From: Planctomycetota bacterium
GTDB taxonomy: Bacteria; Planctomycetota; Phycisphaerae; UBA1845; Fen-1342
Length of the DNA: 32,224 nucleotides
Reading direction: 5' to 3'
Assembly: GCA_016235145.1 (NCBI GenBank)
Contig: JACRLV010000155.1
Span: 1-32,224, forward strand
In this document: positions 7,377 through 32,224 of the stretch, piece after piece
Numbering within the stretch: position 1 is the first letter of the stretch
Layout: the number at the start of each line of letters is the position of its first letter
Translations under genes and position numbers: made by a program
The notes under the pieces: generated by a model
The model's input: only the letters and a program-made list of their open reading frames with translations
The model's database searches: none
Told to the model about the DNA's origin: nothing

Positions 7377-7430
7377 ACTCCCTTGGCGGCCTGATTCTTT
7401 TCGAAACTGATGAAAGAGCGTCCCGCGCCC

Positions 7431-7458
7431 TTGCATCGCGGCCAGCGTTCCCTATCAT
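7431..7458 (+). promoter_or_regulatory. Predicted promoter for the act-cox cluster
   Basis: TTGCAT (7431-7436), a 16-bp spacer and TATCAT (7453-7458, five of six to consensus) lie about 30 bp upstream of actA. The -35 box is weak (three of six). The arrangement is divergent from the ABC promoter. Confidence 0.42.
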
Positions 7459-7486
7459 CGCCGTCTCGCGGTTTGGAAAAGGAACT

Positions 7487-11316: not shown

Positions 11317-11325
11317 CGGCTATGG

Positions 11326-11407
11326 CCCGCGGTTTCGCGGGGGTCGGCGCGATGGGTGACGCTTCGTGGGAAGTGTGAATGGCTGCAACGGCGCCGTTGG
11401 CCGTTGC
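11326..11407 (+). other. Paired hairpins between actB and actC
   Basis: This 104-bp gap is the largest within the act genes. It holds a perfect stem CCCGCG-GTTT-CGCGGG (11326-11341) and then GCAACGGC (11385-11392) pairing with GCCGTTGC (11400-11407), which competes with the palindrome AACGGCGCCGTT (11387-11398). No T-run follows. They may be a processing or stability element that changes the ratio of subunits; function is inferred only from position. Confidence 0.35.
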
Positions 11408-11420
11408 CAAGGTGCAGTGA

Positions 11421-14209: not shown

Positions 14210-14219
14210 CGAGGAATCC

Positions 14220-15521
14220 GTGGAACAAGTGGTCGACATCTCGAAAGATCGCCTGCGGATCGACGATCTCGCGCCGGGCATCGCGAACCTCTCGTTCGCG
14301 ATCGGCGTTCTCGGCCTGCTTGGCAGCTGAGCGCTGGCGCTGCTTAACGGCGAGTCGTTCTTCCGGGCGTATCTGGTGAGCTTCTGCTTCTGCCTGAGCC
14401 TTTCGCTGGGCGGGCTGTTTTTCACGATCCTTCAGCACCTGACCCGCGCGGGTTGGAGCGTGGTCGTCCGCCGCGTTGCGGAAAATGTCGCCGGCGTGCT
14501 GCCTGTGCTGGCGGTGCTCTCGCTGCCGATCGTGGTCGCCGTCGCCGCCGGCTGGCCGGATTCGATCAAGGACGTGTATGAGTGGCGCGGTTTTGATCCC
14601 GCCGCCCACGTCGCCGAGGCGACTCCCGCAGCGACAGCCCACCATTTGCTGCTCAAAAAGCAGGCTTTTCTGAATCCGACCTTCTTTACGATTCGCATCG
14701 CCGGCTACTTCATTATCTGGTGGTGGCTGGTTGGCTTTTTCCGCGGGAATTCGATCCGCCAGGATGAGACCGGCGATCCGGGGCTGACCAGCGCGATGCA
14801 ATCGCGATCGGCCCTGAGCATGGTGCTGTTCGCGCTGACGACGACGTTCGCCGCGGTCGACTTCCTCATGACGCTCGACCCGCTTTGGTTCAGCACGATT
14901 TTCGGCGTGTATTTCTTCTCCGGCGGAAACGTCGGTTTCTTCTCGCTGTTGGCCCTGACGATGTGCCTGCTTCATCGGGCCGGGCGGGCGCAAAAGGCTC
15001 TCTCGATCGAGCATTTTCACGACGTCGGGAAGCTGATGTTCGCGTTCATCGTTTTCTGGGCGTACATCGGCTTTTCGCAGTACATGCTGATCTGGTACGC
15101 CAACCTGCCGGAAGAGACCGGGTGGTACCTGATTCGGCAGGAGGGCTCCTGGAAGCTGATGAGCCTGTTCCTGCTGCTGGGCCACTTTGTGGCGCCGTTC
15201 CTGGCGCTGGTCTCGCGCTGGCCGAAACGCGATCCGAGCACGCTGATCGCGGCGGCGGCGTGGATGCTGCTGATGCACTGGTTCGACATGTTCTGGCTGG
15301 TGTTTCCGCACGCCGAGCAGTCGGTCGTCTCCGCCGATCCGCGGCTCGATACGATTCACGCGGCGGCGCTCGTCTGGACCGATGGGTTGCAGTGCGTGAC
15401 GTGCCTGCTGGGCGTCGGCGGCATCTTTGTGTGGAAAATGGCCCGCAACATGGCGAGCGCCTCCCTGATTCCGACCCGCGATCCGCGGCTGCATGAATCG
15501 TTGGCGTTCGAGAACATTTGA
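14220..15521 (+). CDS. actF: ActF, second NrfD-like subunit of ACIII, interrupted by in-frame TGA
   Basis: A 433-residue frame from GTG 14220 (AGGAA ribosome-binding site five bases upstream, ten bases after actDE) to 15521 reads as a complete NrfD-like ActF, but codon 37 (14328-14330) is TGA. Translation on both sides fits one protein: the upstream part ends in a hydrophobic helix (LSFAIGVLGLLGS) and the downstream part continues ALALLNGESFFRAYL in the same frame. TGA ends other genes here (actC, the ABC genes), so the code is not reassigned. No hairpin suitable for selenocysteine insertion is obvious after the TGA, and the site is in a membrane helix. A point mutation or base-call error (for example from TGG) is most likely. 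A restart at GTG 14376 would lose 52 residues and has no ribosome-binding site. Confidence 0.85.
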
Positions 15522-15571
15522 GCGCCAGCGGCGGCGGGGGATTGGGCGCGGCAGCGTACGAGGGAGATCAG

Positions 15572-15922
15572 GTGTCGCACGGAGCAACTGAACATCCGAA
15601 TCCTAACCTTCACGACGACCCGCGCTCGTCGCCCCTGGTGCTTGGGGCCGTGCTGGGCGTGATTCTGACGGTGGTGACGATTCTTTGTACGGTCGCGCTG
15701 TACTATGCGGAGGACTCCGTCCTGCGCGAGCGAGTCGCGGCGCAGGCCAACGCGTCGGTGGTGGAGCAATTGAAGGCCGAACAGAACCTCGGCCTCCAGA
15801 AGTTGGAATGGGTCGATCCGAAAGAACGCAAGGCGGTCCGCGTTCCGATCGATCTGGCGATGAAGATCGTGGCCGCCGAGGCAGCAAAGAAGCCGACGGC
15901 GTCGGCCCCGGCTTCAAACTGA
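15572..15922 (+). CDS. Small single-helix membrane protein of the ACIII-caa3 cluster
   Basis: A 116-residue protein with a soluble N-terminus, one membrane helix (about residues 24-46) and a soluble C-terminus. The motif LEWVDPKERKAVRVPIDLAM resembles short membrane proteins that I recall next to SCO genes in ACIII clusters of other phyla. Its function is unknown; an accessory or assembly role is inferred from position. GTG 15572 has AGGGAG about five bases upstream. The frame extends back to a TTG at 15518 that overlaps the actF stop, but that start has no better ribosome-binding site. Confidence 0.75.
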   Translation: MSHGATEHPNPNLHDDPRSSPLVLGAVLGVILTVVTILCTVALYYAEDSVLRERVAAQANASVVEQLKAEQNLGLQKLEWVDPKERKAVRVPIDLAMKIVAAEAAKKPTASAPASN

Positions 15923-15933
15923 CCAGAGAGAGT

Positions 15934-16845
15934 ATGACGCTGCACGCTCGACATCGCGGTTTCTTCCGCCTGATCGCCCCTGTGCTGGGTGTGTGGCTGT
16001 TTGTTTGCGCGAGCGTCCCGGCCCAGATCAACCGGGGCCTACCGGAGGAGATGCGCGGCCTTGAGGTTGAGCAGAAGCTCGGCGATCAGATTCCGCTCGA
16101 CGCGAACTTTGTCGACGAGCGCGGCCGTAACGTGACGCTGGCCGATTACTTCAAGGGCGAGCGGCCGGTCGTCCTGGTGCTGAACTACTTCCGCTGCCCG
16201 TCGCTGTGCGGTCTGCTGTTGAATCACCTGACCGACCGCATGAAGGAAATGAACGCCATTTCGAACTGGCTGCCGGGCACGCAGTTCGACGTGCTCGCGG
16301 TGAGCTTCGAGCCGCTCGAAGGCCCCCAATTCGCGGCCGCCAAAAAACGGTCCTACGTACTGGAATTGGGCAAGTCCGAGGCGGAACAGGGGCTGCACTT
16401 TCTGACCGGCGAAAAGGCTGACATCGACAGGCTGCGCCACGCGGTGGGCTATCCGATCCGCTGGAATTCAGAGCGGCAGGAGTGGATTCACCCGTCGGCG
16501 ATCATGGTGTGCACGCCGAACGGCGTCATCTCGCGCTACCTGAGCGGGCTGGATTATGACGCCCAGACGTTGCGTCTGTCGCTGGTCGAAGCGTCCCAGG
16601 GAAAGACCGGCTCGGTCTGGGACAAGGTGTTTCTCACGTGCTACGTGTATTACTCGCACGAGGGCCGTTATGTGCCCTATGCGATGGGTATCATGCGGGT
16701 CGGCGGCGCGGTGACCGTCCTGTTGCTGGGAGGGTTTGTGCTGATCCTCCGGCGCATGGAAGCGGCGCGGCGACGGGCCGCTGGAATTTCGGGCGGATTG
16801 ACGGGCGGCGACGCGCCCCATGCGCCGCACCCAGAGGGAAAGTGA
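15934..16845 (+). CDS. sco: SCO family copper chaperone (CuA assembly)
   Basis: A 303-residue thioredoxin-fold protein of the SCO1/SenC family, which delivers copper to, or reduces, the CuA site of cytochrome oxidase. It has a signal peptide (first ~35 residues), the copper motif CPSLC (C88, C92) and the distal ligand H186 in WIHPSAIMV. A second membrane helix near the C-terminus (about 250-275) is an extra anchor beyond the minimal SCO fold. It is placed directly upstream of coxB, its expected client. ATG 15934 was chosen because it gives a signal peptide at the N-terminus; the open frame upstream overlaps the preceding gene. It ends eight bases before coxB. Confidence 0.92.
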   Translation: MTLHARHRGFFRLIAPVLGVWLFVCASVPAQINRGLPEEMRGLEVEQKLGDQIPLDANFVDERGRNVTLADYFKGERPVVLVLNYFRCPSLCGLLLNHLTDRMKEMNAISNWLPGTQFDVLAVSFEPLEGPQFAAAKKRSYVLELGKSEAEQGLHFLTGEKADIDRLRHAVGYPIRWNSERQEWIHPSAIMVCTPNGVISRYLSGLDYDAQTLRLSLVEASQGKTGSVWDKVFLTCYVYYSHEGRYVPYAMGIMRVGGAVTVLLLGGFVLILRRMEAARRRAAGISGGLTGGDAPHAPHPEGK

Positions 16846-16852
16846 CGACGCA

Positions 16853-17947
16853 ATGCTGAGTCTTCTTCTGGCAAAAGGCGACGGAACGATCTGGATGCCG
16901 CCGCAGGCGTCGACGGTGGCCGGCGCCACGGATTACGTTTTCTACTACATCCTCTATATTTCCGCGGCCTTTTTCATCCTCATCAACGGGGCGATGTTCT
17001 ACTTCATCTGGAAGTACCGCCGCCGCGGCCCGCACGACAAGGTCGGCCGCATCACGCACTCGACGCCGCTGGAAATCGGCTGGAGCGTGATCCCCGGCCT
17101 GCTGCTGATCCCCATGTTCTGGTGGGGTTTTAAAGGCTACATGGAGCAGCGCACCTTTCCGCCGAACTGCCTGGAAATTAACGTCGTCGCGGCGAAGTGG
17201 AATTGGACCTTCATCTATTCGAACAGCTTCACATCGAATGAGCTGCACGTTCCGGTCGATACGCCGGTCCGGCTGATCATGCGCTCCAACGACGTGATTC
17301 ACTCGTGCTTCATCCCCGCGTTTCGAGTGAAGCGCGACGTGGTCCCCGGCCGCTATGCGGATTTGTGGTTCCGCGCGACGCGCACGGGCCGCTTTCCGCT
17401 CGTCTGCGCCGAGTATTGCGGCACCAGCCATTCCGACATGAAAGCCGACGTCTACGTGCATCCCAAGGTCGCCGACGGCCAGGCCAAAGACCCGCTCGAC
17501 AAGTCGTATGACGAGTGGCTGAAGAACGCCGACCCGTACGGCAAGCTCACGCCCGAGCAGTACGCCGAGTACACGAAGGACTACGAGGCCTTCAAGACTA
17601 AGTACGGGGGCGATGAGGTTATGAAACCGATCGTCGAGAAGCTGGCGGCGCCGCCGGAGCGCGGACAGCAGCTCTGGGACAAGAAGGGCTGCAAGTCCTG
17701 CCACACGCTGGACGGCACGCCGAGCCAGGGGCCGTCTTGGAAGGGCGTCTTCGGGAAAGAGGAAGCGCTGGCCGACGGCACGAAGGCCAAAGTGGACGAG
17801 AACTACCTGCGCGAATCGATTCTCGAGCCGAACGCCAAAATCGTGGCGGGCTTCGCACGCGGCGTCATGCCGAAGACGCCGCTCAAGGATTACGAAATCG
17901 ATGCGTTGATCGCGTTTTTCAAGTCGCTCTCGGGCGACCAGAAATAG
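16853..17947 (+). CDS. coxB: Cytochrome c oxidase subunit II with fused cytochrome c (caa3 type)
   Basis: A 364-residue subunit with two membrane helices (about 25-48 and 76-96), a cupredoxin CuA domain and a C-terminal cytochrome c. CuA ligands are visible: H150, C185, E187, C189, H193 and M196 (in CAEYCGTSHSDM), with the expected spacing of 35 between H150 and C185. The haem motif is CKSCH (280-284), with M339 in GVMPKTP as the likely axial ligand. The fusion marks a caa3 oxidase, so electrons from ActA or ActDE can enter directly through the bound haem. ATG 16853 is preferred; ATG 16820 overlaps the SCO gene and is a weaker alternative. No classical signal peptide precedes the first helix. 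Confidence 0.96.
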   Translation: MLSLLLAKGDGTIWMPPQASTVAGATDYVFYYILYISAAFFILINGAMFYFIWKYRRRGPHDKVGRITHSTPLEIGWSVIPGLLLIPMFWWGFKGYMEQRTFPPNCLEINVVAAKWNWTFIYSNSFTSNELHVPVDTPVRLIMRSNDVIHSCFIPAFRVKRDVVPGRYADLWFRATRTGRFPLVCAEYCGTSHSDMKADVYVHPKVADGQAKDPLDKSYDEWLKNADPYGKLTPEQYAEYTKDYEAFKTKYGGDEVMKPIVEKLAAPPERGQQLWDKKGCKSCHTLDGTPSQGPSWKGVFGKEEALADGTKAKVDENYLRESILEPNAKIVAGFARGVMPKTPLKDYEIDALIAFFKSLSGDQK

Positions 17948-17968
17948 CCGGACCGGTAGGGTTCGGAT

Positions 17969-17992
17969 CGCCGCGAGGCTGGTTCCGCGGCG
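17969..17992 (+). other. Hairpin directly before the coxA ribosome-binding site
   Basis: CGCCGCG (17969-17975) and CGCGGCG (17986-17992) form a perfect 7-bp stem with a 10-nt loop, ending just before the AGGGAG ribosome-binding site of coxA. It could be an mRNA processing or stability element; no T-run follows. Confidence 0.35.
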
Positions 17993-18009
17993 GATAGGGA
18001 GTGTGTTCG

Positions 18010-19731
18010 ATGTCGTCGCTTCATCCGTCCGTCGCCGTCGCCGCGCCGGCCATCCCGGACGACCCGGGCACGGCCAACTACCTGACGCACGAGAAGGGCA
18101 TCCTCTCGTGGCTGGGGACGCTGGATCACAAGCGCATCTGCGTGATGTACCTGTACGGGATCATTGCGTTCTTCCTGATCGCCGGCGCGTTCGCGCTGCT
18201 GTTCCGGACGGCGCTGCTGTTTCCGCAGAAGGGAGCAGTCCCCGGCGGGATTCAGTTCCTGATCTCGCACGACATGTACAACCAGCTCTTCACGCTGCAC
18301 GGCGCGATCATGATCTTCGTGGTCATCATCCCGGGCATCCCCGCCGCGCTGGGCAATTTCATCGTGCCGCTCATGCTCGGCGCCAAGGACGTGGCCTTCC
18401 CACGGCTGAACCTGGCGAGCTGGTACATGTGGGCCTTCGGCTGCGTCTGGCTGCTGATCGCGCTGCTCACCGGCGGGCTCGACACCGGCTGGACGTTCTA
18501 CACGCCCTACAGCACCAGCACCTCGACCCGCGTGATCCCCGCCCTGACCGGCGCGTTTCTGCTCGGGTTCAGCTCGATTTTCACCGGCCTGAATTTCATC
18601 GTCACGATTCACAAGCTCCGCCCGCCGCAGATGGGCTGGTTCCAGATGCCGCTGGTGCTGTGGAGCCTGTATTCGACGGCGATCATGCAGGTTCTGGCGA
18701 CGCCGGTCCTGGGAATCACGCTGCTGATGCTGATCGTCGAGAAGGCGGTCGGGATCGGCATCTTCACGCCGGAGCTGGGCGGCGACCCCGTGCTGTTCCA
18801 GCATTTCTTCTGGTTCTACAGCCATCCGGCGGTGTACATCATGATCCTGCCGGCGATGGGCGTGATGAGCGAGTTGCTGGCCACGTTCAGCCGCAAGCAC
18901 ATTTTCGGATACACCTTCATTGCGTTCTCTTCGGTCGCGATCGCGCTGCTGAGCTTCCTGGTCTGGGGGCACCACATGTTCGTTTCCGGGCAGAGCAGCC
19001 TGCTCGGCACGATCTTCAGCGCGATCACGTTCAGCATCGCGGTTCCGTCGGCGGTCAAGGTGTTCAACTGGGTCGCGACGCTCTATCAGGGTTCGATCGA
19101 GTTCAAGGCGCCGATGGTCTACGCCCTGTCGTTTATCTGGATTTTCGGCATCGGCGGCCTGACCGGACTGTTTCTGTCCACGATGAGCACGAACGTGCAC
19201 CTGACCGACACGTACTTCGTCGTCGCGCACTTCCACATGGTCATGGCCGCGACGATCTTCGTGTTCCTTGGCGGGTTGCACTACTGGTGGCCGAAAATCA
19301 CGGGCCGGATGTACAACGAAACGCTCGCGCTGGCGGGCTGCCTGATCTCCGTGATCGGCTTCAACATCACCTTCCTGTCGCAGTTCCCGATGGGCTCGAA
19401 CGGGATGATGCGGCGCTATTACAACTACGCGCCGGAGTTTCAGAGCCTCCACGTGATTTCGACCATCGGCTCCTATCTCGCCGGCGTGGGCTTCTTCGTC
19501 AGCGTCGTCTGCCTGGTGCAGTCGCTGTTCCGCGGCCGCAAGGCCCCGGCGAATCCGTGGGGCGCCGCCACGATGGAATGGCGTACGCCTTCGCCGCCGC
19601 CGTGGTATAACTTCGAGACGACGCCGAAGGTCGAGGATCCGTACGATTACGACCTGCTGAAGTACAACGAGCGAACGGACAGCTACGACTACGTCGGGCG
19701 ACCGGCGGGGGCGCCGCGTCCGGCGCACTAG
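18010..19731 (+). CDS. coxA: Cytochrome c oxidase subunit I, A2-type haem-copper oxidase
   Basis: A 573-residue catalytic subunit with 12 or more helices that reduces O2 and pumps protons. Ligands are visible: H97 (low-spin haem a), the CuB and cross-link pair H272-Y276 in YSHPAVY, H321-H322 (CuB), H407 (haem a3) and H409 (haem a). The YS before H272 (Y270-S271), in place of the Glu of the D-channel, is the signature of the A2 subclass, as in the Rhodothermus marinus caa3 enzyme. ATG 18010 is preceded by AGGGAG at eight bases; GTG 18001 is an alternative. It lies between coxB and coxC. Confidence 0.97.
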
Positions 19732-19780
19732 GGCGGTTTGTTTCGGGCGGCCCGGGTCGTCCGGATTGAGGGTGATTTCG

Positions 19781-20701
19781 ATGGCGGACGCCATTCACGC
19801 AGAAGCGACTTCCGGGCATGCCGAAGGCGGGCATGGGCACGCCCATGGCGATCTGCCGTTTCTGGCCCACCACTTCGAGACGCCGGCCCAGCAGTTCGAC
19901 GCCGGCAAGCTCGGCATGTGGATCTTTCTGGTCACGGAAGTGCTCTTCTTCGCCGGCCTGTTCTGCGCCTACGCGGTGTATCGCCGCACGCACCCGCAGA
20001 TCTTCATCGTCGGCCAGCACTTCCTGGACGTGAAGATGGGCGCGCTCAACACGATCGTGCTGATTCTCTCGAGCTTCACGATGGCGATGGGCGTCTGGTG
20101 CGCCCAGACCTCGCGGCGCAAAGGGCTGCTCGTCTGCCTGATTCTGACCTGGATCGGGGCGGCGGGTTTCATGGGCGTCAAGTTCGTCGAGTACAGCCAC
20201 AAGTTCCACGACCAGATCATCTGGGGCAAGGATTTCAACCCGACGCGGCACGTCGAGCACGAAGGCGGGGCGGAATCCGCTCACGTCGAGAACGCAGCGG
20301 CCCCTGCGGCGGCTTCAGCGACCCCAGCGCCGGCAGCGGCCGGCGTTTCGACGGTCGAGCATTCTACGGTTCCGTCCGCCGCGGCCGGTCCCCAGGGGCT
20401 CGGCCGTACGCAGGAAGAGTACTCCGTGGAGAAGGCCGAGCATCACGCACTGGACGCCTACGCGCTGGCGTCGCAGATGCGCGACCTGCACATCTTCATG
20501 GGGATTTACTTCTGCCTCACCGGTTTGCACGGTTTCCACGTGCTGGCCGGCATGATCGTGATCGCGTGGCTGATCTACGGCGCGTTCAAGGGACGTTACG
20601 ACGGCAAATACTACACGCCGGTCGACCTCGTCGGGTTGTACTGGCACGTAGTCGATCTGGTGTGGATTTTCCTTTTCCCGCTGCTGTACCTGATTCACTA
20701 A
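19781..20701 (+). CDS. coxC: Cytochrome c oxidase subunit III with Ala-rich inserted linker
   Basis: A 306-residue subunit III with His-rich N-terminal residues (about 6-31), helices at about 44-66, 88-108 and 118-138, then a low-complexity linker at about 155-225 rich in Ala, Pro and acidic residues, and two further helices ending the protein. The core helices match subunit III (GLHGFHVLAGM near the end), but the long hydrophilic insert in the middle is unusual and probably lies in one soluble compartment. The His-rich start may bind metal, which is inference. ATG 19781 has GAGGGTG upstream. Confidence 0.92.
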   Translation: MADAIHAEATSGHAEGGHGHAHGDLPFLAHHFETPAQQFDAGKLGMWIFLVTEVLFFAGLFCAYAVYRRTHPQIFIVGQHFLDVKMGALNTIVLILSSFTMAMGVWCAQTSRRKGLLVCLILTWIGAAGFMGVKFVEYSHKFHDQIIWGKDFNPTRHVEHEGGAESAHVENAAAPAAASATPAPAAAGVSTVEHSTVPSAAAGPQGLGRTQEEYSVEKAEHHALDAYALASQMRDLHIFMGIYFCLTGLHGFHVLAGMIVIAWLIYGAFKGRYDGKYYTPVDLVGLYWHVVDLVWIFLFPLLYLIH

Positions 20702-20732
20702 GCGGGTGTTTTCGATCGGAAGCGAGTCGGAC

Positions 20733-21116
20733 ATGAACCATCAAACCCAAGAATCACGGGCCGTCGCGGGCGCCCAGCCGCTGGTCGGCCATCTTGTTCC
20801 CTGGCAGATCCTGCTGGCGACCTGCCTGGCCCTGCTCGTGCTGACCGTGATCACCGTGCTGGCGATCCGGGTCGATCTGGGGCCGCTGAACCTCTGGATC
20901 GCGATGACGATCGCCGCGGTGAAGGCGTCGCTGGTCGTGATGTACTTCATGCACCTGCGCTGGGACCGGCCGTTCAACGTCGTCGCGTTTCTCGCGTCGA
21001 TCGTCTTCCTGACGCTGTTCATCTCGCTGGCGATGCTCGATTCGGTTGCGTACAAGGGTGAGATGATTCCGCCGACCGCGAAGGAATACGCGCCCATCAT
21101 CACACGCACCAAGTAA
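20733..21116 (+). CDS. Prokaryotic cytochrome c oxidase subunit IV-like protein
   Basis: A 127-residue protein with three hydrophobic helices (about 25-50, 54-74 and 83-105). MYFMHLRWDRPFNVVAFLASIVFL is close to the family of small prokaryotic subunit IV proteins (COX4_pro), which lie beside subunit III. ATG 20733 is preferred over GTG 20706. It is one of several closely spaced plus-strand genes. Confidence 0.87.
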   Translation: MNHQTQESRAVAGAQPLVGHLVPWQILLATCLALLVLTVITVLAIRVDLGPLNLWIAMTIAAVKASLVVMYFMHLRWDRPFNVVAFLASIVFLTLFISLAMLDSVAYKGEMIPPTAKEYAPIITRTK

Positions 21117-21140
21117 CCCGCGCGCGACGAGGACCAGGCC

Positions 21141-21770
21141 GTGCCGGTTTTTCCGCGAAGCACTCCCGCGCCGCAGTGGGGCGACGGCCTCGCCGATCGT
21201 CCGCCGAGCGATCGCTGGCTCTTCGGGGCCGACTACGGCAAGCTGGGGATGCTCCTATTCTTCGCGTCGCTGACGGCCCTCTTCGCTCCCTTGCTGGTCG
21301 TCTACTTCCTGATGCGGCTGCGTTTCGCGCAGTGGCCGCCGCCGGGCCTGCATCCGCCGCTGGCGGGTTTTCTGCTCGCGACGGGCTTTCTGATTTCGCT
21401 CAGCGTCGTGCTGCACCGGGCCGTCGCCGCGCTTCGTGCGGATCGGACCGCTCCGTTCCGCCGGCGGGTAGCGGTTGCGGCGCTGCTGGCCGCGGCGTTT
21501 CTCGGCTGCCAGCTCGGCAACTGGATGGCGATGTTTCAGGGCACGGTTCCCGAGAAGAGCTGGCCGGCGGCGGGATTCCTGTATGTCTTCACCGCGGTTC
21601 ATGCCTTGCACGTGGTCGGCGGAATCGCGCCGCTGGCGCTGGTGCTGCTCAGGAGCCGGGCGGGCCGATATTCCAGCGCGAACTGCACGGGCGCTCGCTA
21701 TGTTGCGATGTACTGGCACTTCCTCGACGGCGTGTGGCTGGTGATGCTCGCGGCGTTCTTGATTCCGTAG
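21141..21770 (+). CDS. Second subunit III-like (CoxC-family) membrane protein
   Basis: A 209-residue five-helix protein in the subunit III fold: FGADYGKLGMLLFFASL at the start, FTAVHALHVVGGIAPLAL in helix 4 and YWHFLDGVWLVMLAAF at the end, the last being a hallmark of subunit III. It is shorter than the upstream coxC and lacks its linker. Two subunit III genes around subunit IV occur in other large cox clusters, so this is probably a second subunit or a replacement, not a duplicate in decay. It starts with GTG 21141 with GAGGA upstream. Confidence 0.88.
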   Translation: MPVFPRSTPAPQWGDGLADRPPSDRWLFGADYGKLGMLLFFASLTALFAPLLVVYFLMRLRFAQWPPPGLHPPLAGFLLATGFLISLSVVLHRAVAALRADRTAPFRRRVAVAALLAAAFLGCQLGNWMAMFQGTVPEKSWPAAGFLYVFTAVHALHVVGGIAPLALVLLRSRAGRYSSANCTGARYVAMYWHFLDGVWLVMLAAFLIP

Positions 21771-21803
21771 GTCGTCCAAAGACACTACGAACTCAAAAAG
21801 ACC

Positions 21804-21828
21804 GTCGGACTCGGAGGTCCGACGCTAC
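21804..21828. repeat. REP-like palindrome between convergent genes
   Basis: GTCGGAC-TCGGAG-GTCCGAC (21804-21823) is a perfect 7-bp inverted repeat followed by GCTAC, so on the minus strand it reads GTAGC then palindrome, like the elements at 1-233. It sits in the 70-bp gap between the convergent subunit III-like gene and the DUF3179 gene and may also act as a two-way terminator. Confidence 0.75.
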
Positions 21829-21840
21829 TTATTCGCGCGG

Positions 21841-22815
21841 CTACTGGTCCGCGGGCCGCAACGACGACCAGGCGAACCAGAGCGAAAAGATCGCCGGCCG
21901 ATCTCGCCCATCACGCAATGGATCGACTTCGCTCGCAGCGGTTACTACCCAGCGGTCCGATTCCCGATAGGCGACCACGGGCGTTTTGAGCGAATAGCGC
22001 TCGGACGGGCGCGGATTCACCGCGTAGCGCAGCCTTGGGTCGGCGAAGTAGGTCGCGAATGCGTTCGGGCGATAGAACTTTCGGCGGCCTGGTTCGGGCA
22101 GAATCGCGCTCGTTTCGGGGTGAGCGAAGCGCCACTGCTCCCACGTGACCAGGGCCGACGGCAGAATGGCGAGCGTCTCGCCGCGGGCCGCCGCCGGGCC
22201 GGCCACGGCACGCGCCTGTAGCTGAGACCACAGGCTCTCGCCTCCGCTCTCGCGGCGATCGTAGAGCAGCGTGTTCGAGTTGTAGAGCACGCCGCTGGCG
22301 GCAAACGTCAGCGTTTCGTCGCCGACCCGTCGGTCAAACACCACCGCGCTGTCGCAGAGCGGGCTGTACGTGACGGCGATCGGAACGTCTCCAAGCTGGT
22401 CGTTGCAGGCTTCGTGCGCGGTGAGAACCCAGATCGGGTATGCGCGGGCCGCACCCGCGATGGCAACGCCGATGACGCGGTCGCCGGGCAGCAGAGGGTA
22501 CGTTCCCATCAGCTTCCCGGCGCGAATCACTTCGGCGGCGGCCATGGTTTTCGGCTCGCTCAGCGGCGGAATGTCGCCTTTTCGCGCGTCGGTGCCGATC
22601 AGCTCGCCCGCGGGAATCAGGCACGTCGAGAGATCAAACCCGTACGACGCGACGGAGCGGGAGCCGTGCAACGCATCGGGAGGATCATTGGAAGTGATCT
22701 GGTACTGCCAGAATCCCAGCAGCATGAGCAACAGGCCGAGCCCGACGAACAGCGGCAGCGCCTGTCGCGCCGTGATGGTCTTGCGAATCGGGCGCGTCAA
22801 AGGCTCGCGCGACAC
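21841..22815 (-). CDS. DUF3179 family membrane-anchored protein
   Basis: A 324-residue protein with an N-terminal anchor (about residues 20-42) and the DUF3179 pattern: ARAYPIWVLTAHEACND, VTYSPLCDSAVVFDR, SGVLYNSNTLLYDR, ESLWSQ and TWEQWRFAHPET. The usual TYCPLC core is TYSPLC here, so one Cys is missing. Function is unknown for the family. It is 13 bases downstream of ctaB with a GTG start at 22815 and AGGGAG upstream, so the two are cotranscribed. Membership in a haem A operon suggests a role in oxidase assembly, but this is inference. Confidence 0.88.
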   Translation of the reverse strand: MSREPLTRPIRKTITARQALPLFVGLGLLLMLLGFWQYQITSNDPPDALHGSRSVASYGFDLSTCLIPAGELIGTDARKGDIPPLSEPKTMAAAEVIRAGKLMGTYPLLPGDRVIGVAIAGAARAYPIWVLTAHEACNDQLGDVPIAVTYSPLCDSAVVFDRRVGDETLTFAASGVLYNSNTLLYDRRESGGESLWSQLQARAVAGPAAARGETLAILPSALVTWEQWRFAHPETSAILPEPGRRKFYRPNAFATYFADPRLRYAVNPRPSERYSLKTPVVAYRESDRWVVTAASEVDPLRDGRDRPAIFSLWFAWSSLRPADQ

Positions 22816-22828
22816 GCACTCGCTCCCT

Positions 22829-23785
22829 TCAGCGGTTCTGGGCGGACGCGACGATCGCCGCCGCCATCGGGCCTCCGGACGGCGCCCGGTCCGCCATCAT
22901 CAGCCCCAGCAGCAGCGGAAGGTAGATCACGCTTCCCAGAAACACACGGCGGGCTTCCGTCGTCGTGCGATCGCGATACAGCCGAAGTCCGAGCCACACC
23001 GCGGCCAGGCCCAGCCCCAGCGACCCGACCGCGAACAGCACGCCGGTCTCGCCGGCGACGGTGAGCATCAGCCCTGCGGGAACCAGCGCAAGGCTGAACA
23101 GCAGTACGGCGCGGAACGTCAACAGCCCGCTCGGATCGACCTGCGGAAGCATGCGAAAGCCGCCGCGCTCATAATCTTCACGGTACAGCCACGCCAGGGC
23201 CAGAAAATGCGGCATCTGCCAGACCAGCAGAATCGCCGCGAGAAGCCACGCACCCGCACCAAGTTCGCCGCTGGCGGCGGCCCAGCCGATCATGGGCGGG
23301 ATGGCTCCCGAGACGCCTCCCACGAGCGTGTTCATCGTGGAGTGAACCTTCATCGGCGTGTAGATGAGCACGTAGATCAGCAGACATCCAGCCGCCAGGC
23401 CGCCTGCCAGCGGGTTCGCAAGGAGTGCGAGGATGCCGGGGCCGGCGACGCTGCACGCCACCGCAAAGACGCTCGCCTGGCGGCGCGAAAGCCGTCCGGC
23501 GGGCAGCGGCCGGTTGCGCGTGCGATGCATCAGGCGGTCGCGCGGCGTCTCGATAATCTGGTTGAACGCGTTTGCGCCGAGTGCGGCGAGCCCCGTACCG
23601 ACCAGCGTCACCAGCAGTCGAAACAGATCGACGGGCGCGTTGGACGCGAGCATGAACCCGCCGATCGTGCTCAACAGCACCAGCGAACTCAGCCGCGCCT
23701 TGCCGAGCTCCAGAAAATCGCGGAGCGCGGGCGCGCGGTCGCCGTCGACGGGCGAGGATTCGGCTGCACAATTCGTCCGCGACAA
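22829..23785 (-). CDS. ctaB: Protohaem IX farnesyltransferase (haem O synthase)
   Basis: A 318-residue membrane prenyltransferase of the UbiA superfamily that adds farnesyl to protohaem to make haem O, the precursor of haem A needed by the caa3 oxidase. The motif NAFNQIIETPRDRLMHRT (about 72-89), followed by RNRPLPAGRLS, is the conserved first substrate-binding loop. About nine helices are present. The TTG start at 23785 has GGAG eight bases upstream and lies about 24 nt after the predicted start site; I see no better ATG. It is divergent from ctaA. Confidence 0.95.
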   Translation of the reverse strand: MSRTNCAAESSPVDGDRAPALRDFLELGKARLSSLVLLSTIGGFMLASNAPVDLFRLLVTLVGTGLAALGANAFNQIIETPRDRLMHRTRNRPLPAGRLSRRQASVFAVACSVAGPGILALLANPLAGGLAAGCLLIYVLIYTPMKVHSTMNTLVGGVSGAIPPMIGWAAASGELGAGAWLLAAILLVWQMPHFLALAWLYREDYERGGFRMLPQVDPSGLLTFRAVLLFSLALVPAGLMLTVAGETGVLFAVGSLGLGLAAVWLGLRLYRDRTTTEARRVFLGSVIYLPLLLGLMMADRAPSGGPMAAAIVASAQNR

Positions 23786-23815
23786 TCTCGGCTCCGTTCC
23801 AAGTGGACAGGCCGG

Positions 23816-23844
23816 ATTCTAGCGTGCATGACGGCGTCGGCCAA
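23816..23844 (-). promoter_or_regulatory. Predicted sigma70-type promoter for ctaB
   Basis: On the minus strand TTGGCC (23839-23844) and TAGAAT (23816-23821) are 17 bp apart. The -10 box matches five of six and the -35 box four of six. The start site near 23809 gives a 24-nt leader to the TTG start, which supports that start. Confidence 0.5.
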
Positions 23845-23892
23845 CGCGGCAGCCGCTACAATCCTCCGTTTCGGCGGTTGCGGAGGCTCGCG

Positions 23893-25311
23893 ATGGACAG
23901 GGTGCGTGAGAACGTTTCGGCGGCAGATCGGATCGGACCTGTGCTGACGAGCGGCTTCTCGATCACGGTGCTCATGTGGCTGGTCGGATACGCCGCGCAC
24001 CAGCCCGGCTTGAGCATGCCGCCCGTGCTGACGTTTGGATTGCTGATTGCGTGCATGTTGGCGGGCGGGTTCGTCGCGGTGCGGATCGGCGGGCTGAGCC
24101 GGGCGGCGGCCGTCGGGGCGGGAGCGGTATCCGGCCTGGTTAATCTGCTGATTCTTGGCAGCCTGCTCGGCGGCAGGCAACGCGACGCCATGTTGCCGGC
24201 GGAGCTTGCGCGGGTCGCGCTAGTCTGGGCGGCCGCAACGGTTCTGCTCGGGGCGATCGTGGTGGGTATCGGCGGGCTCCTCGCTCCGCGCGATCATGAT
24301 AGAGCGGGAACCAGGTGCGCCGGCGGAAACTGGCCGATGCGGTTCGCGTGCGTGGCCGTCCTGGCGACGCTATTGCTCTTGTCGGTGGGCGGCGTCGTGA
24401 CTGGTTTTCAGGCCGGGCTCGCCGTTCCTGACTGGCCGAACACGTACGGCTACAACATGTTCCTGTTTCCGCTCTCCAAGATGACGGGTGGAATTTACTA
24501 CGAGCACTCGCACCGGCTGTTCGGCGTGCTGGTCGGGCTGACAACCCTGACGTTGGCCGTATATCTCACGCGGGTCGAGCGGCGGGGCTGGGTGCGGGCG
24601 ATGATCTGGCTGATCCTGCTGGTCGTGTGCGTGCAGGGACTGCTCGGAGCGCTTCGCGTCACCGGGAAATTCACGCTGAGCACGGCGCGAGAGGAACTGG
24701 CGCCGAACCTCACGCTGGCGGTCGTTCACGGCGTGTTGGCGCAGGCCATCTTGTCCGGACTGGCGTGCCTGGCGGTCGTGCTCTCGCGGCGCTGGGCGAC
24801 GGCGCCGTCCCGCGTCGAGCATGAGCGGGCGGGTACGGATGCGCAGCTCGGCGGCGTCTGCGTGCTGCTTGCGCTGATGCAGATCCTCGCCGGTGCGATG
24901 CTGCGGCATTTTTCATGGGGGCTGTATCTGCATCTGTCTCTGGCCGGTCTGGTCGTGGGGCTCGTCGGGCTGTACGCGATTCGCATCTGGTCCCTATACG
25001 ACGATCACGCGCCGCTACAGCGAATGGGAGCGGTGTTGGTTTCGGTGCTGGGGCTGCAATTGCTGCTCGGATTCACGGCGCTGGGCGGATTGATGCTCCA
25101 GAATCCGGGCGGAGCGATCCCGGCGGCGCGCGTGCTGATCACGACCGCACACCAGACGACCGGCGCCATCCTGCTCGCGCTGACGTCGACGACATTGCTC
25201 TGGCATTTGCGGCTCGTGCGGCCGAGGCGGGCGTTCGTTTCGAATCACGACGCCAGCGCGGCCGCCGAGGTTTCTCAGAAGGAAAGCGCACCAGCCGCCG
25301 ATGCGGGCTAG
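23893..25311 (+). CDS. ctaA: Haem A synthase (COX15/CtaA) with an extra N-terminal membrane domain
   Basis: A 472-residue protein. The C-terminal ~320 residues are a COX15/CtaA protein that converts haem O to haem A: VTGFQAGLAVPDWPNTYG, EHSHRLFG (H205, H207), VHGVLAQ, HLSLAGL and AHQTTGA contain the haem-binding His residues. The first ~150 residues add four hydrophobic helices with no His motif, which I do not recognise. ATG 23893 has GGAGG six bases upstream; the frame is open to 23803. It is divergent from ctaB and convergent with nnrD, and its TAG stop lies in a CTAG shared with the nnrD stop. Confidence 0.92.
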   Translation: MDRVRENVSAADRIGPVLTSGFSITVLMWLVGYAAHQPGLSMPPVLTFGLLIACMLAGGFVAVRIGGLSRAAAVGAGAVSGLVNLLILGSLLGGRQRDAMLPAELARVALVWAAATVLLGAIVVGIGGLLAPRDHDRAGTRCAGGNWPMRFACVAVLATLLLLSVGGVVTGFQAGLAVPDWPNTYGYNMFLFPLSKMTGGIYYEHSHRLFGVLVGLTTLTLAVYLTRVERRGWVRAMIWLILLVVCVQGLLGALRVTGKFTLSTAREELAPNLTLAVVHGVLAQAILSGLACLAVVLSRRWATAPSRVEHERAGTDAQLGGVCVLLALMQILAGAMLRHFSWGLYLHLSLAGLVVGLVGLYAIRIWSLYDDHAPLQRMGAVLVSVLGLQLLLGFTALGGLMLQNPGGAIPAARVLITTAHQTTGAILLALTSTTLLWHLRLVRPRRAFVSNHDASAAAEVSQKESAPAADAG

Positions 25312-27665: not shown

Positions 27666-28106
27666 CTAGTCGTTGCTGTTTCCGTTGCCTCCCTGACCGC
27701 TGCCGTTTTCGTTCAGGTTTTCGTTCTCGTTCTCGTTCTCGTTGCCGGCGCTGCCGTTGTCGTTCGCGTTCGACGCGTTTTCGTTCGTGTTCGCAGCGCC
27801 GTTGTCGTTTCCGTTCCCGTCGTCGCCGCCGTCATCGGCATTGTCATTGTCATTGCCGTTGTCGTCGTCGCCGTTCTCGTTCTCGTTCTCGTTTTCGCCG
27901 GAGTCGTTCGAGTTGGCGTTGTCGTCGTCGCCGCTCTGGTTCCCATTGTCGTTGAGCGCGCCGTTCGAGCCGCCGCCGACCGAGTCGATCAGGCCCGAGA
28001 GATCAAGATCTCCGAGCACCTGATTCAAGGTGGCGCTGTCGCAGGCGATCAGTCCCGAAATGGCCAAACCTCCGATTCCCAGTCCGATCCATTCACGCAT
28101 TCTCAT
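27666..28106 (-). CDS. Lipoprotein with long Asn/Asp/Glu/Gly low-complexity tail
   Basis: A 146-residue protein with a lipoprotein signal (MRMREWIGLGIGGLAISG, then LIAC lipobox, Cys about 22). About 30 residues follow (QVLGDLDLSGLIDSVGG), then a tail of about 90 residues made almost only of Asn, Asp, Glu, Gly and Ser, with runs of ENEN and NDN. The tail is acidic and disordered, and could bind Ca2+ or act as a spacer; this is inference. The ENEN run comes from imperfect hexanucleotide repeats, so its length may vary. ATG 28106 has AAGGAGAG upstream; the longer frame to 28319 is rejected because it overlaps the STAS gene's 5' end and hides the signal. Confidence 0.82.
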   Translation of the reverse strand: MRMREWIGLGIGGLAISGLIACDSATLNQVLGDLDLSGLIDSVGGGSNGALNDNGNQSGDDDNANSNDSGENENENENGDDDNGNDNDNADDGGDDGNGNDNGAANTNENASNANDNGSAGNENENENENLNENGSGQGGNGNSND

Positions 28107-28221
28107 TCGTTCTCTCCTTCGGCCCACGTTCCCATGCGGGTGCTCCCACCCCGAGCAGAGCCGGTGGGCAGCGGTTTCGGACAAGAAAAGTGCGAATTCT
28201 TTGGGGCCTGTTCCACGCCGG

Positions 28222-28250
28222 TCCACAATCTCAGGTCCGACAGTTATCAT
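28222..28250 (+). promoter_or_regulatory. Predicted promoter for the STAS-TPR gene pair
   Basis: TCCACA (28222-28227, four of six) and TATCAT (28245-28250, five of six) are 17 bp apart, giving a leader of about 50 nt to the STAS ATG. Confidence 0.4.
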
Positions 28251-28306
28251 GACCGTCGCGTGTCGTACGATTTCGCGGCGGTCAATCCCGTGCGGAGAGC
28301 GATCGG

Positions 28307-28660
28307 ATGCCGGAGACAAGTCTGCTCGTCGAGGTTCTTGGCGGGGTTACCACAGTCCGATTTCGCGACAATTCGATCCTCGATGCGCTGGCGATCCAGC
28401 GTGTCGGGCGCGAACTGGGAGATATCATCGAAACGCAACCCACCAGGAAAGTGCTGATCGATTTCCGCGACGTGCGTTTCCTGTCGTCAGAAGCCCTGCG
28501 CATGGTCCTGGGGCGCCGCTCGCGGGCGGATCGGGCCGGCGCGTCGGTCGCGTTGTGCTCCATCTGGGCCGAGTTGCTCAAGATCTTCAAACTGACGAAT
28601 CTGGACCAGCTTTTCAGCATTCACGAGAATGCCGAGGCCGCCCGCGCCGCACTTGGTTGA
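28307..28660 (+). CDS. STAS domain protein (anti-sigma factor antagonist-like)
   Basis: A 117-residue single STAS domain. Such proteins (SpoIIAA/RsbV type) bind an anti-sigma kinase and are switched by phosphorylation of a Ser. The usual phosphorylation loop is visible as FLSSEALRMVLG (about 65-76), with two adjacent Ser; the strand VLIDFRDV precedes it. No kinase or phosphatase partner is nearby. ATG 28307 has GGAGAG about six bases upstream. The TPR protein begins nine bases after its stop, so they are probably cotranscribed. Confidence 0.9.
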   Translation: MPETSLLVEVLGGVTTVRFRDNSILDALAIQRVGRELGDIIETQPTRKVLIDFRDVRFLSSEALRMVLGRRSRADRAGASVALCSIWAELLKIFKLTNLDQLFSIHENAEAARAALG

Positions 28661-28669
28661 CGCTGCCGC

Positions 28670-31237
28670 ATGAACATCGAACCAAACCAGGGAACTCACG
28701 CCGCGCCGGCCTCGAAAGCAGTGAGCCGGCGCTTGTTGTGGCTTGCGCTCAGTGCGATTTCAGTCATCGTCGTCCTATGGGTCGGTTCAGGGAATCTGTC
28801 CGCACCTTGGATTCAGGGCGATGAACGCATCTTCATCGCCAACAACCCGGACGTGACGGGGGCGGGCCGACAGGATTCGCTGGCGGCGCGGGTCGCGGGC
28901 ATCTTCGGCCACTGGCACGAGGATCTCTATCAGCCGATTCCCATCGCGACGTACGCTTTGGAGTGGGCGCTGTGGGGGCCGCAGCGCGTCGCGTCCATGC
29001 GGCTTACCGATGTCGTGCTTCACGCCGTCAACGCTCTGCTTCTGGCCGCCGTGCTGGCGGCTGCGTTGCGGCGGGGCGGCGTGGCTGATCGGCCTGCGGT
29101 CATCGCGGCATGGGCGTTTTCGCTGCTGTGGGCGCTGCACCCCGCACTGGCGACCACGTTTGCCGCCGACATGGGCCGCACGCACCTGCTCGCTGCGACG
29201 TTCTGCCTGCTCTCGTTGCAGCTTCACATTCGCGGCTGGAACACTTCGCGCGGCGGCTGGCACGTCGCCGGGCTGGTCGTGCTGCTTTGTGCGATGCTGA
29301 GCAAGGTGGTGGCGGGCTGGTTTCTCGCGCTGGTGGCGGCGGGGGCTCTGTGGATCGGCTGGCGGGCCGCATGGCGGGCCTGGTACGTCTGGACGGCTGC
29401 GGCGATGTGCGTCGGCTTCGCCGCGCTGGCGCTCGTGACGACGCGCGAATCCGGCATTCTGGATGACGCCCAACTTTCGATCTTCGGCGATCCGATCACG
29501 CGCAGCCTCGTCGGTCTCGGGTATTACGTCCGCAACACGCTTTGGCCGGTCGGGCTTGCCACGTGGTATCCGCCCGATCCGAATACCTCCTGGTCGAACC
29601 CGATCGTTCCGGTAATGGCTCTAGCCACGCTCGGGTCGCTGATCTGTGCGTGGCGGGCTGCTCGTCAACAGGAATCCGCGCCGATCGCCGTCGGTGTGGT
29701 CTGGTTCTGGGCCTCAATTCTGCCTGTTCTGGGTCTGATCGGAGCCCGAACGGCTGCCGCGCAGGATCGCTATCTCTATCTTCCATTGATGGGTCTGGTC
29801 ATCGGCGCGGTTGCGCTGCTCACCTTTCTGCGCCAGCGAACGCAAATCGTCGTGCCCATCGTATTGCTGCTCGTAGCCGCGATGGCGTCCGAAGCTCGTC
29901 GAACCGCGACCGACGCGCGCGACATGCTCGTCCGCGCGGAGCGTGTCGTTTCGCGCGACGCGAACGACCCGCGCGCCCGCGAGTTCGCCGCGATGGCCGT
30001 CGGATTTGTGCGCGATTATCCCGAGCTGCGCCCGCCCGGCTGGACCGACCAGATTGCGCAGGAGCGATTTCTTGCCGCGCTGCATGCGGCGGCGGAAGCC
30101 GCGGAGGCCGGCGGCGCGAAGGACCGCTATTTCCGCGACAAACGCGACCGCGCCGCTTTTCATCGCCGGCTCGCATGGAAGATGCTGGAGAATCGGGATG
30201 TCGCGCGTGCGTCCGAGCAAGCCGCGCGTGCCGCCGAGTGCGACCCCGAAGCACCCATGACCCTGTTGACGCTTGCCCGCACGGCCCAGGCGCGCGGCGA
30301 CTGGCGGGCGGAACTCGCCGCGTATCAGATGCTCGAGCCGCTGATTCCGGACGACGCGCGATTCAAGTCCGTTGCGCTCACTGAGTACGGCGACCTCCTG
30401 CTGACCGTCTTCGAGCGGCCCGATCTGGCGATGCCGCGGCTGCGGGCCGCAAAGGCAACCGGGAAAGCGTCAACGGTTGCGGAGCTGAAGCTCGCACGGT
30501 GCGAAGTGATGGTCGGGCAGGGGGCGACAGGGTATCAACTCGCGCGCAGCGTTTTCCAACGCGAGCCGAACAACCTCGAAGCGGCCCTGGTGGTCGCCTT
30601 GTATCACGCCCGCAGCGAGCATTGGGAAGACGCGGCCCGCGCGTACCGCGTCATTCTCGAGATCGAGCCTACCAATTACGAAGCGTTGCGCGGTTTTCAC
30701 GAAGTTTGTTTTCAACTCGGCCGCATGCGCGAAGCGATGATCGCCTGGCAGGACGCGGCTCGCCGCGACCCGAGCGTCGACGGCTACGAGTCGTTCTTCG
30801 TGTGGGCCGCGGCTTGCGCCGGCGATGAGCACGCGACCGAGTGGATCGACGGTTGGATGAAGAAGCGGCCCGCGGATCGGTTCGGATTGCTCGCCAGGAG
30901 CCTGATGGCGTGTCGTGCCGGACAGTTCGCCGACGCCGTCGAGTGGGCGGAAAAGGCCCGGCATGCGACGCCCATTCCGCGCGCAAACGAGTTCGCCCGA
31001 GCCGACGCCGCCCTGCGGTTCTACCTGGCCCGTGGCGAATTCGGATCGAGCGCGCTGCTGGTTCGCGCTGCGGTCTCGCTGTCAGCCGGCGATATGGCGA
31101 CCGCCCGCCAAATCGCCTCCGATTTTCTCCACGACCACCCCGAAGCCCCCGAGCGATCATTGGCAAACCACCTGCTCGAACTCGCCTCAAGCCAGCCCGC
31201 GACCGCCCCGAACCCTGAAAATGGCGAAAAGAGATAA
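28670..31237 (+). CDS. Multi-pass membrane protein with C-terminal TPR-like repeats (TMTC/GT-C-like)
   Basis: An 855-residue protein. The N-terminal ~420 residues are multi-helix, with an acidic first loop (GDERIFIANNPDV) and YQPIPIATYALEWALWG-type sequence, the layout of TMTC-like GT-C sugar transferases. The C-terminal half is soluble and helical with repeats resembling TPRs (for example around ALVVALYHARSEHWEDAARAY and later LARSLMACRAGQFADAVEWA). It could be an O-mannosyl-type transferase with a TPR protein-binding arm, but the catalytic role is inference. ATG 28670 follows the STAS stop by nine bases, with only a weak ribosome-binding site, suggesting coupling. Confidence 0.85.
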   Translation: MNIEPNQGTHAAPASKAVSRRLLWLALSAISVIVVLWVGSGNLSAPWIQGDERIFIANNPDVTGAGRQDSLAARVAGIFGHWHEDLYQPIPIATYALEWALWGPQRVASMRLTDVVLHAVNALLLAAVLAAALRRGGVADRPAVIAAWAFSLLWALHPALATTFAADMGRTHLLAATFCLLSLQLHIRGWNTSRGGWHVAGLVVLLCAMLSKVVAGWFLALVAAGALWIGWRAAWRAWYVWTAAAMCVGFAALALVTTRESGILDDAQLSIFGDPITRSLVGLGYYVRNTLWPVGLATWYPPDPNTSWSNPIVPVMALATLGSLICAWRAARQQESAPIAVGVVWFWASILPVLGLIGARTAAAQDRYLYLPLMGLVIGAVALLTFLRQRTQIVVPIVLLLVAAMASEARRTATDARDMLVRAERVVSRDANDPRAREFAAMAVGFVRDYPELRPPGWTDQIAQERFLAALHAAAEAAEAGGAKDRYFRDKRDRAAFHRRLAWKMLENRDVARASEQAARAAECDPEAPMTLLTLARTAQARGDWRAELAAYQMLEPLIPDDARFKSVALTEYGDLLLTVFERPDLAMPRLRAAKATGKASTVAELKLARCEVMVGQGATGYQLARSVFQREPNNLEAALVVALYHARSEHWEDAARAYRVILEIEPTNYEALRGFHEVCFQLGRMREAMIAWQDAARRDPSVDGYESFFVWAAACAGDEHATEWIDGWMKKRPADRFGLLARSLMACRAGQFADAVEWAEKARHATPIPRANEFARADAALRFYLARGEFGSSALLVRAAVSLSAGDMATARQIASDFLHDHPEAPERSLANHLLELASSQPATAPNPENGEKR

Positions 31238-31254
31238 AATGTCGATTGAAGCTG

Positions 31255-31282
31255 TTGACGGATCGTCGCCAGTCGATATACT
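31255..31282 (+). promoter_or_regulatory. Strong predicted sigma70-type promoter with no CDS directly downstream
   Basis: TTGACG (31255-31260) and TATACT (31277-31282) are 16 bp apart, each five of six to consensus, the best match in the window. It begins 18 bases after the TPR-protein gene ends, and no plausible CDS lies before 31567. Confidence 0.6.
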
Positions 31283-31289
31283 GTATAGT

Positions 31290-31422
31290 GGGTGAGTTGG
31301 CGATCTAATCTTGGCGGGTTGATCGCCGAACTCTAACCAGTTGTCCGCAAAAAACTTGCTTCCACTCGCTGCGGCACCCTCAGACCGCGCCAATACCCAA
31401 AGGGTGCCGCACGCCTTTTTTT
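31290..31422 (+). ncRNA. Candidate small RNA or leader attenuator
   Basis: From the predicted start site near 31290 to the T-run at 31422 there is about 130 nt with no gene. It holds a 5' hairpin, TTGGCGATC (31297-31305) with GATCGCCGA (31321-31329), then an unpaired stretch containing CCAGTTGTCCGCAAAAAAC, then a strong terminator hairpin. This is the layout of a bacterial small RNA. It could instead be a 5' leader that ends early before the kinase-like gene. I recognise no known RNA family. Confidence 0.45.
31370..31422 (+). terminator. Intrinsic terminator
   Basis: TGCGGCACCCT (31370-31380) and AGGGTGCCGCA (31401-31411) form a perfect 11-bp stem with a 20-nt loop, followed after four bases by seven T (31416-31422). 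It is the clearest Rho-independent terminator in the window, about 130 nt after the TPR-protein stop, so it could end that mRNA and/or the candidate RNA. Confidence 0.88.
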
Positions 31423-31450
31423 AAGCACCCTCCAGCCGTTTGCATCGATC

Positions 31451-31474
31451 ATAACATCATTGATATCATGTTGT
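31451..31474. promoter_or_regulatory. AT-rich palindrome, possible operator
   Basis: TGATATCA (31461-31468) is an 8-bp palindrome flanked by AACAT (31453-31457) and ATGTT (31468-31472). It is a sharply AT-rich island in GC-rich DNA, upstream of the kinase-like gene. A regulator-binding site is possible; nothing identifies the protein. Confidence 0.3.
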
Positions 31475-31527
31475 TACGGAATCTAGCTGAGGGCGATCGT
31501 TGACTTTTCTTCGCCCTGGAATCGCCG

Positions 31528-31556
31528 TTTTCGAATCGCCGGCCGCTCGGTATACT
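31528..31556 (+). promoter_or_regulatory. Possible promoter for the kinase-like gene
   Basis: TATACT (31551-31556) matches a -10 box at five of six; TTTTCG 17 bp upstream is a poor -35 box (three of six). The start site near 31563 would leave a 22-nt leader to ATG 31585. Confidence 0.35.
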
Positions 31557-31584
31557 CCCCAACGCGATGCATGGCGCGGAGAAG

Positions 31585-32224
31585 ATGACGTTGCGGCGCT
31601 CTGAAACAACCTCGGGTCAACGCACGAGCAAGAGTCGGTATCCCTGGCTCTATGCGTTGCCCCACGCCGTCCTGCCGAAGACCGTTCGATGTGAGGGCAG
31701 GGTCTACACGCACGTCGAGACGTTCAAGCACGATTTTTTTGCCGCTACCGGGCTCTATCGCGGGCCGGACGGGCGGCTTCACGTGCTGAAGTTGGGGCGT
31801 CGAATGCCGTTTCTGACGTTCCCCATGCGTTGGCTCGGCGAGTGGCTGACGCGGCGCGAAGTCCGCCTGTATTCCAAGCTCCACGGCATGGCGGGCATCC
31901 CGGCGTTGACCGGCCTGCTCGCGGACGGCTCCGGCTTCTTGCACGCATTTGTTCCCGGGCATCCGCTCGGGCGCGACGAGCGTGTCGGCGACGCTTTCTT
32001 CACCGAGCTGCTGGCAATGGTCAAGGAACTGCATCGTCGCGACATCGCGTACGTCGATCTCAACAAGCGCCAGAACGTGCTGGTCGGCGACGACGGGCGG
32101 CCGTATTTGATCGATTTTCAGATCTCGCTCGATCTGCCGCCGGTCGGCTGGCGGCGTCTGCCGCCGGTGCGCTGGCTGCTGGCTCGCTTCCAGCACGGGG
32201 ACTGGTATCATTGCCTGAAACACA
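31585..32224 (+). CDS. Protein-kinase-fold protein (RIO1/LPS-kinase-like), 5' part only
   Basis: The frame is open to the window end, so only 213 residues are seen. The kinase fold is marked by a possible ATP-binding Lys in VLKLG (about 70), the catalytic loop YVDLNKRQN (D158, N160, N164) and the metal-binding IDF (D177), 19 residues later, as in RIO and Kdo/heptose kinases. Only the C-lobe end is missing. Bacterial relatives phosphorylate sugars of lipopolysaccharide core or similar glycans, which fits the GT-C-like neighbour, but the substrate is not known. ATG 31585 has GGAG just upstream and a leader from the predicted promoter; ATG 31567 is in frame and has no ribosome-binding site. Confidence 0.82.
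   Translation, partial: MTLRRSETTSGQRTSKSRYPWLYALPHAVLPKTVRCEGRVYTHVETFKHDFFAATGLYRGPDGRLHVLKLGRRMPFLTFPMRWLGEWLTRREVRLYSKLHGMAGIPALTGLLADGSGFLHAFVPGHPLGRDERVGDAFFTELLAMVKELHRRDIAYVDLNKRQNVLVGDDGRPYLIDFQISLDLPPVGWRRLPPVRWLLARFQHGDWYHCLKH

Follow-up and report, generated by a model that had tools for sequence, protein, structure and literature searches.

Yfr1, a small RNA of cyanobacteria, consists of two stem-loops around an unpaired stretch that carries an ultraconserved 11-mer (Voss et al. 2007, PMC2190773). Conservation of a non-coding RNA throughout a clade is likewise a feature of 6S RNA (RF00013), and among planctomycetes a candidate structured RNA, the Rhodopirellula-1 motif, has been described from Planctomycetes and Proteobacteria (Weinberg et al. 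2010, PMC2864571). For the PVC group as a whole, Rfam-based counts give only 8 small-RNA families (PMC9029176). Here we describe a locus near the end of a 32,224-nucleotide stretch of planctomycete DNA, the whole of which we refer to as the window, that appears to encode a small RNA with a layout reminiscent of Yfr1.

The likeness to Yfr1 extends to the order of the parts (a 5' stem-loop, an unpaired stretch with an ultraconserved, pyrimidine-rich 11-nucleotide motif, and a GC-rich hairpin with a U-tail) and to a near-universal presence within one large clade, with variable flanks. The motif itself is different, being ACUCCUCACAC in Yfr1 and CUUCCACUCGC here, and the planctomycete RNA does not qualify as a Yfr1 member. 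It is also longer (about 135 nt as compared with 54-69 nt), and its terminator stem and loop are near-invariant as well; the two phyla are unrelated, and we claim no homology. The RNA shares with 6S RNA its conservation throughout a clade as a non-coding RNA, but it has no long bulged duplex, and there was no Rfam 6S match in the window. As to the Rhodopirellula-1 motif, for which the table of the paper gives no Rfam accession and which we therefore set apart by description, the reported distribution differs, because a covariance model built on the core of the present RNA had the window's own genome as its sole match in a 294-genome sample of the phylum.

No match to Rfam 15 was obtained in the window at the gathering threshold. 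A permissive Rfam search of the interval returned only SR1 on the other strand, a match that we rejected as chance. Nor did we find a description of the RNA in the open-access literature on Phycisphaerae small RNAs, most subscription journals having been outside the search. We conclude that, as judged from its sequence, the RNA represents a new small-RNA family, of a kind already known (bacterial small RNA) and with unusual conservation.

Promoter, fold and predicted transcript

The features of the locus, all on the forward strand, are as follows.

31255..31282, + strand: sigma-70-type promoter TTGACG-16-TATACT, 10/12 matches (-35 box TTGACG at 31255-31260, -10 box TATACT at 31277-31282, spacer of 16 nt)
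31288..31422, + strand: gene for the small RNA, with a transcript predicted at about 135 nt (from fold z, DNA search and covariance model)
31294..31333, + strand: 5' hairpin, GAGTTGGCGATC (31294-31305) pairing with GATCGCCGAACTC (31321-31333)
31359..31369, + strand: near-invariant 11-nt motif CUUCCACUCGC, 5' of the terminator stem
31370..31411, + strand: terminator hairpin of 11 bp, TGCGGCACCCT (31370-31380) with AGGGTGCCGCA (31401-31411)
31383..31393, + strand: near-invariant loop motif GACCGCGCCAA, predicted unpaired probability 0.86
31416..31422, + strand: U-tract of the intrinsic terminator, T7, with CGCC between stem and T7
31551..31556, + strand: -10 box TATACT of the kinase-like gene, separate from the RNA (from family conservation)

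An earlier note on this DNA had pointed to the TTGACG-16-TATACT promoter, followed by a 5' hairpin, an unpaired region and an 11-bp stem with seven T, and to about 130 nt with no coding sequence, as a candidate small RNA. All of these elements were found. The promoter was the top promoter-like site in a scan of positions 28000-32224, which yielded three sites where shuffled sequences would be expected to yield 0.5. Placing the start 6-8 nt past the -10 box puts the predicted beginning of the transcript at 31288. An unpaired stretch separates the 5' hairpin from the terminator hairpin, and the latter was missed by an automatic terminator scan because the scan was limited to loops of 8 nt, whereas the loop here measures about 20-22 nt. 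The predicted RNA (31288-31422) folds with an energy of -50.7 kcal/mol and a z score of -3.5, and none of the shuffled sequences was that low.

The upstream coding sequence (28670-31237) stops before the interval, the kinase-like open reading frame does not start until 31567, and the list of open reading frames contains no long one confined to the interval; an overlapping frame of 126 amino acids (30915-31295) reaches only the first bases of the RNA. The locus has a promoter and an intrinsic terminator of its own and lacks a coding sequence between them, which is the arrangement of bacterial intergenic small RNAs of the trans-encoded type. Because promoter and terminator are both conserved (see below), it is highly probable from the sequence that the gene yields a discrete transcript, and the RNA polymerase that makes it would be the one carrying the housekeeping sigma factor.

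Elsewhere in the window, the stretch from 7133 to 25311 contains genes for Alternative complex III (NrfD, ActD and cytochromes c) and then for cytochrome c oxidase subunits I and II, together with SCO1-like and COX15-like genes, the whole forming a respiratory cluster.

Conservation within one order

A DNA search detected the RNA in 59 of 61 related genomes, each with one copy except for a single genome with two. The matches span the 3' half; identity is 96-100% for most of the loci in the window's family and 79-94% in the rest of the order. A covariance search for the fold in relatives, the check suggested in the earlier note, bore out the small-RNA reading: of the 65 genomes sampled from the window's order (in Phycisphaerae, Planctomycetota), 61 matched the model of the core. 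Across 298 genomes of the class, matches outside this order were absent, and with permissive filters the best E-value in 39 genomes of other or sister orders was 0.13, as expected by chance. A search of 84,980 species genomes for the exact stem-loop-stem pattern gave dozens of contigs (91 were reported). Their titles nearly all read Planctomycetota or Phycisphaerae; the few exceptions, bins with the label Alphaproteobacteria, Chloroflexi or simply "bacterium", look mislabelled. Viral contigs gave no match to the pattern. As far as sampled, the family appears to be limited to one order, probably GTDB UBA1845, in which it is carried by nearly all genomes, across eight families. In the genome with two copies (G031, copies L055 and L058), the loop (GTCAACCGCGCC) and the downstream sequence of the second copy have diverged, and the scan revealed no clear promoter for it.

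Conservation is concentrated in the last 60 or so nucleotides, which are almost invariant and comprise CUUCCACUCGC, the stem UGCGGCACCC/GGGUGCCGCA and a loop that contains GACCGCGCCAA. Every position of CUUCCACUCGC is identical in at least 99 of 101 distinct loci, as compared with only 55 of 101 for the adjacent upstream base, so that the motif has a sharp edge. It includes CUUCC, the complement of the Shine-Dalgarno-type sequence GGAAG, and is mostly predicted to be unpaired (probability 0.66), with a predicted accessibility that is only moderate. The 60 loci that came from sequence similarity, and not from the pattern, include 58 with exact CTTCCACTCGC and 58 with the loop ACCGCGCCAA; their stem reads TGCGGCACCC/GGGTGCCGCA in 57 and, through a compensatory A-U to G-C change, TGCGGCGCCC/GGGCGCCGCA in 3. 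In four alignment rows the stem UGCGGCACCC/GGGUGCCGCA exhibits compensatory changes from A-U to G-C on both sides, and 99.8% of its cells are paired. The core varies in length from 40 to 45 nt without steps of three and is therefore not coding.

The 5' half could not be aligned among relatives, but its folding is kept (mean z of -2.19 for the 5' domain, with 19 of 26 loci below -1). Potential kissing interactions between the 5' domain and either loop or flank showed no excess over shuffles. Upstream, 82 of the 101 distinct loci have a sigma-70-type promoter that matches at 9 or more of 12 positions, far beyond the roughly 8 loci expected by shuffling. The window's family has 26 distinct loci, nearly all of which keep the position of the promoter and the 16-nt spacing to TATACT, with the promoter at a nearly fixed distance from the RNA; in other families it lies nearer or further off. 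The U-tract is shorter or interrupted in some relatives (CGCCTTATATAG), and termination strength therefore differs among members. The replacement of the full U-tract by CGCCTTATATAG or CGCCTTTTATAG, as at the 3' ends of L021, L024, L027 and others, is a recurring variant and may be a sign of a different 3'-end mechanism.

Candidate functions and target searches

Since nearly every genome of the order keeps the 3' end almost unchanged, the RNA probably does something important there. We propose that a non-coding small RNA, the first of its family to be described, is encoded here by a gene that stands alone, and that this RNA is most likely a trans-acting base-pairing regulator, a proposal to which we would give an even chance. 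Base pairing is placed first because the 11-mer carries CUUCC, complementary to GGAAG, and because the layout is that of Yfr1. According to this model, the housekeeping sigma factor would direct RNA polymerase to the promoter, the resulting RNA of about 135 nt would be shielded by its 5' hairpin, and transcription would stop at the terminator hairpin. The exposed 11-nt CUUCCACUCGC would pair with mRNAs, perhaps aided by the GACCGCGCCAA loop, and the pairing would probably cover ribosome binding sites of the GGAAG type, thereby controlling translation without Hfq. No match to Hfq was found in the 11 genomes tested, whereas control genomes did match, and the RNA falls outside the class of Hfq-dependent small RNAs.

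Several considerations weigh against base pairing: the invariant stem exceeds what simple seed pairing needs, the 11-mer is only moderately accessible, and target searches did not support it. Exact complements of the 11-mer numbered 78 in 11 genomes, as compared with 45 for the reversed word (1.7-fold), with no start-codon pattern or shared gene start; most of them lay in what looked like coding sequence (Glu-Trp-Lys codons, ribonucleotide reductase-like) or in a repeat. A 10-nt complement located 3-10 nt before an ATG occurred roughly 120 times in 61 genomes versus 54 times for the reversed-pattern control (about 2.2-fold), and the recurrent cases that were inspected read as coding sequence. 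Complements of the loop were not enriched (128 versus 116 in 11 genomes).

One relative, G012, has a REP-like repeat, GGTGCCCCACCCTTGAACGAGCGCAGCGAGTGGAAGGGTGGGG, that contains the exact complement of CUUCCACUCGCUGCG, which is the 11-mer plus the adjoining stem. Its sites are on contigs C5, C18, C20 and C33 (loci L168, L244, L245, L248 and L250, the last a shorter variant). The complementarity may be due to chance, or it may reflect a link, for example action of the RNA on transcripts that bear the repeat.

The silence of the target searches is one of three observations that favor a different, less probable function, the main competitor of base pairing, in which the small RNA binds a protein or core machine (RNA polymerase, the ribosome or an RNA-binding protein) and titrates or guides its partner, with stem, loop and flank forming a single protein-recognition site. 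The other two are that stem, loop and flank are all near-invariant, well beyond an unpaired seed, and that the RNA is near-universal and mostly single-copy, in the manner of housekeeping RNAs. Arguing against binding of this kind, the RNA does not resemble Rfam protein-binding RNAs, and because separate 6S RNA candidates lie at other places in 9 of 11 genomes (two of them above the curated score), it is not a 6S replacement in those genomes. Most of the 6S candidates of the order (L308-L311 and others) score below the Rfam gathering cut-off (36-51 versus 46.4 bits), and 6S RNA is for that reason probably under-annotated in Phycisphaerae.

More speculatively still, the RNA could be a clade-specific housekeeping RNA of Hfq-less planctomycetes that forms an RNA-protein particle with the ribosome or RNA polymerase, or acts on one of them, the 3' module of about 60 nt serving as the recognition element. 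If true, it would constitute a new functional class rather than another antisense-type regulator.

Neighbouring genes and the remaining alternatives

The genes that flank the RNA differ from family to family. In the window's family a gene for a TPR protein lies upstream and a kinase-like gene downstream, the latter usually in the same direction as the RNA. In a second family the RNA follows genes for KpsF-like and SprT-like proteins and precedes an M3-peptidase-like gene, and a third has a flavin-reductase-like gene on the opposite strand. In families other than the window's, the gene that follows the RNA is frequently encoded on the other strand, and a group of 12 loci has an upstream neighbour that is divergent, running away from the RNA on the opposite strand. 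Except for the TPR and kinase-like genes, the names of neighbours were read from translations and are not database matches.

The usual presence of the same-direction kinase-like gene in the window's family accords with a suggestion in the earlier note, namely that the RNA is a transcription attenuator or 5' leader of that gene. This we consider improbable, because the neighbours vary by family and because each of the 15 loci of the window's family that were examined has a separate -10 box, TATAAT or TATACT, for the kinase-like gene just 5' of its start codon. The gene adjoins the RNA only in that family; elsewhere an M3-peptidase-like gene follows, or flavin-reductase-like and kinase genes on the opposite strand. 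Thus, the RNA does not occupy the fixed place before one same-strand gene or gene type that marks a cis-regulatory leader or attenuator, and the folds contain no alternative antiterminator pairing. Because the -10 box of the kinase-like gene is only about 6-10 nt from the start codon (31551-31570 in the window, and 14 related loci), the sequence suggests that its mRNA is leaderless or has a very short leader.

Slighter yet is the chance that the hairpin is simply the terminator of the upstream TPR gene, the outcome that the earlier note had named as telling against a small RNA, and that the promoter arose by chance. The TPR gene ends 132 nt upstream of the stem in the same direction, and the hairpin could stop its transcripts too, but a conserved promoter lies between them, and the 12 loci mentioned above have an upstream neighbour of opposite orientation. 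Moreover, loop and flank are near-invariant in sequence, and terminator function requires neither to be fixed. Finally, a short protein-coding gene, leader peptide or mobile repeat, for which chance open frames in a few members and the possession of GCGAGTGGAAG in common by the RNA and the repeat of G012 might speak, is largely refuted by a core length (40-45 nt) outside multiples of three, a 5' half without a conserved reading frame, and a single copy in nearly all genomes with none in viral contigs.

What is retained across the order, in changing neighbourhoods, is the promoter, the folded 5' part, the near-invariant 3' module and the terminator; conservation is at the level of RNA, non-coding and independent of neighbouring genes, as for a small RNA. 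Its 11-nt motif and loop are kept almost as strictly as the motif of Yfr1. The RNA provides a marker to look for in existing metatranscriptomes, and it makes post-transcriptional control testable in planctomycetes that lack Hfq.
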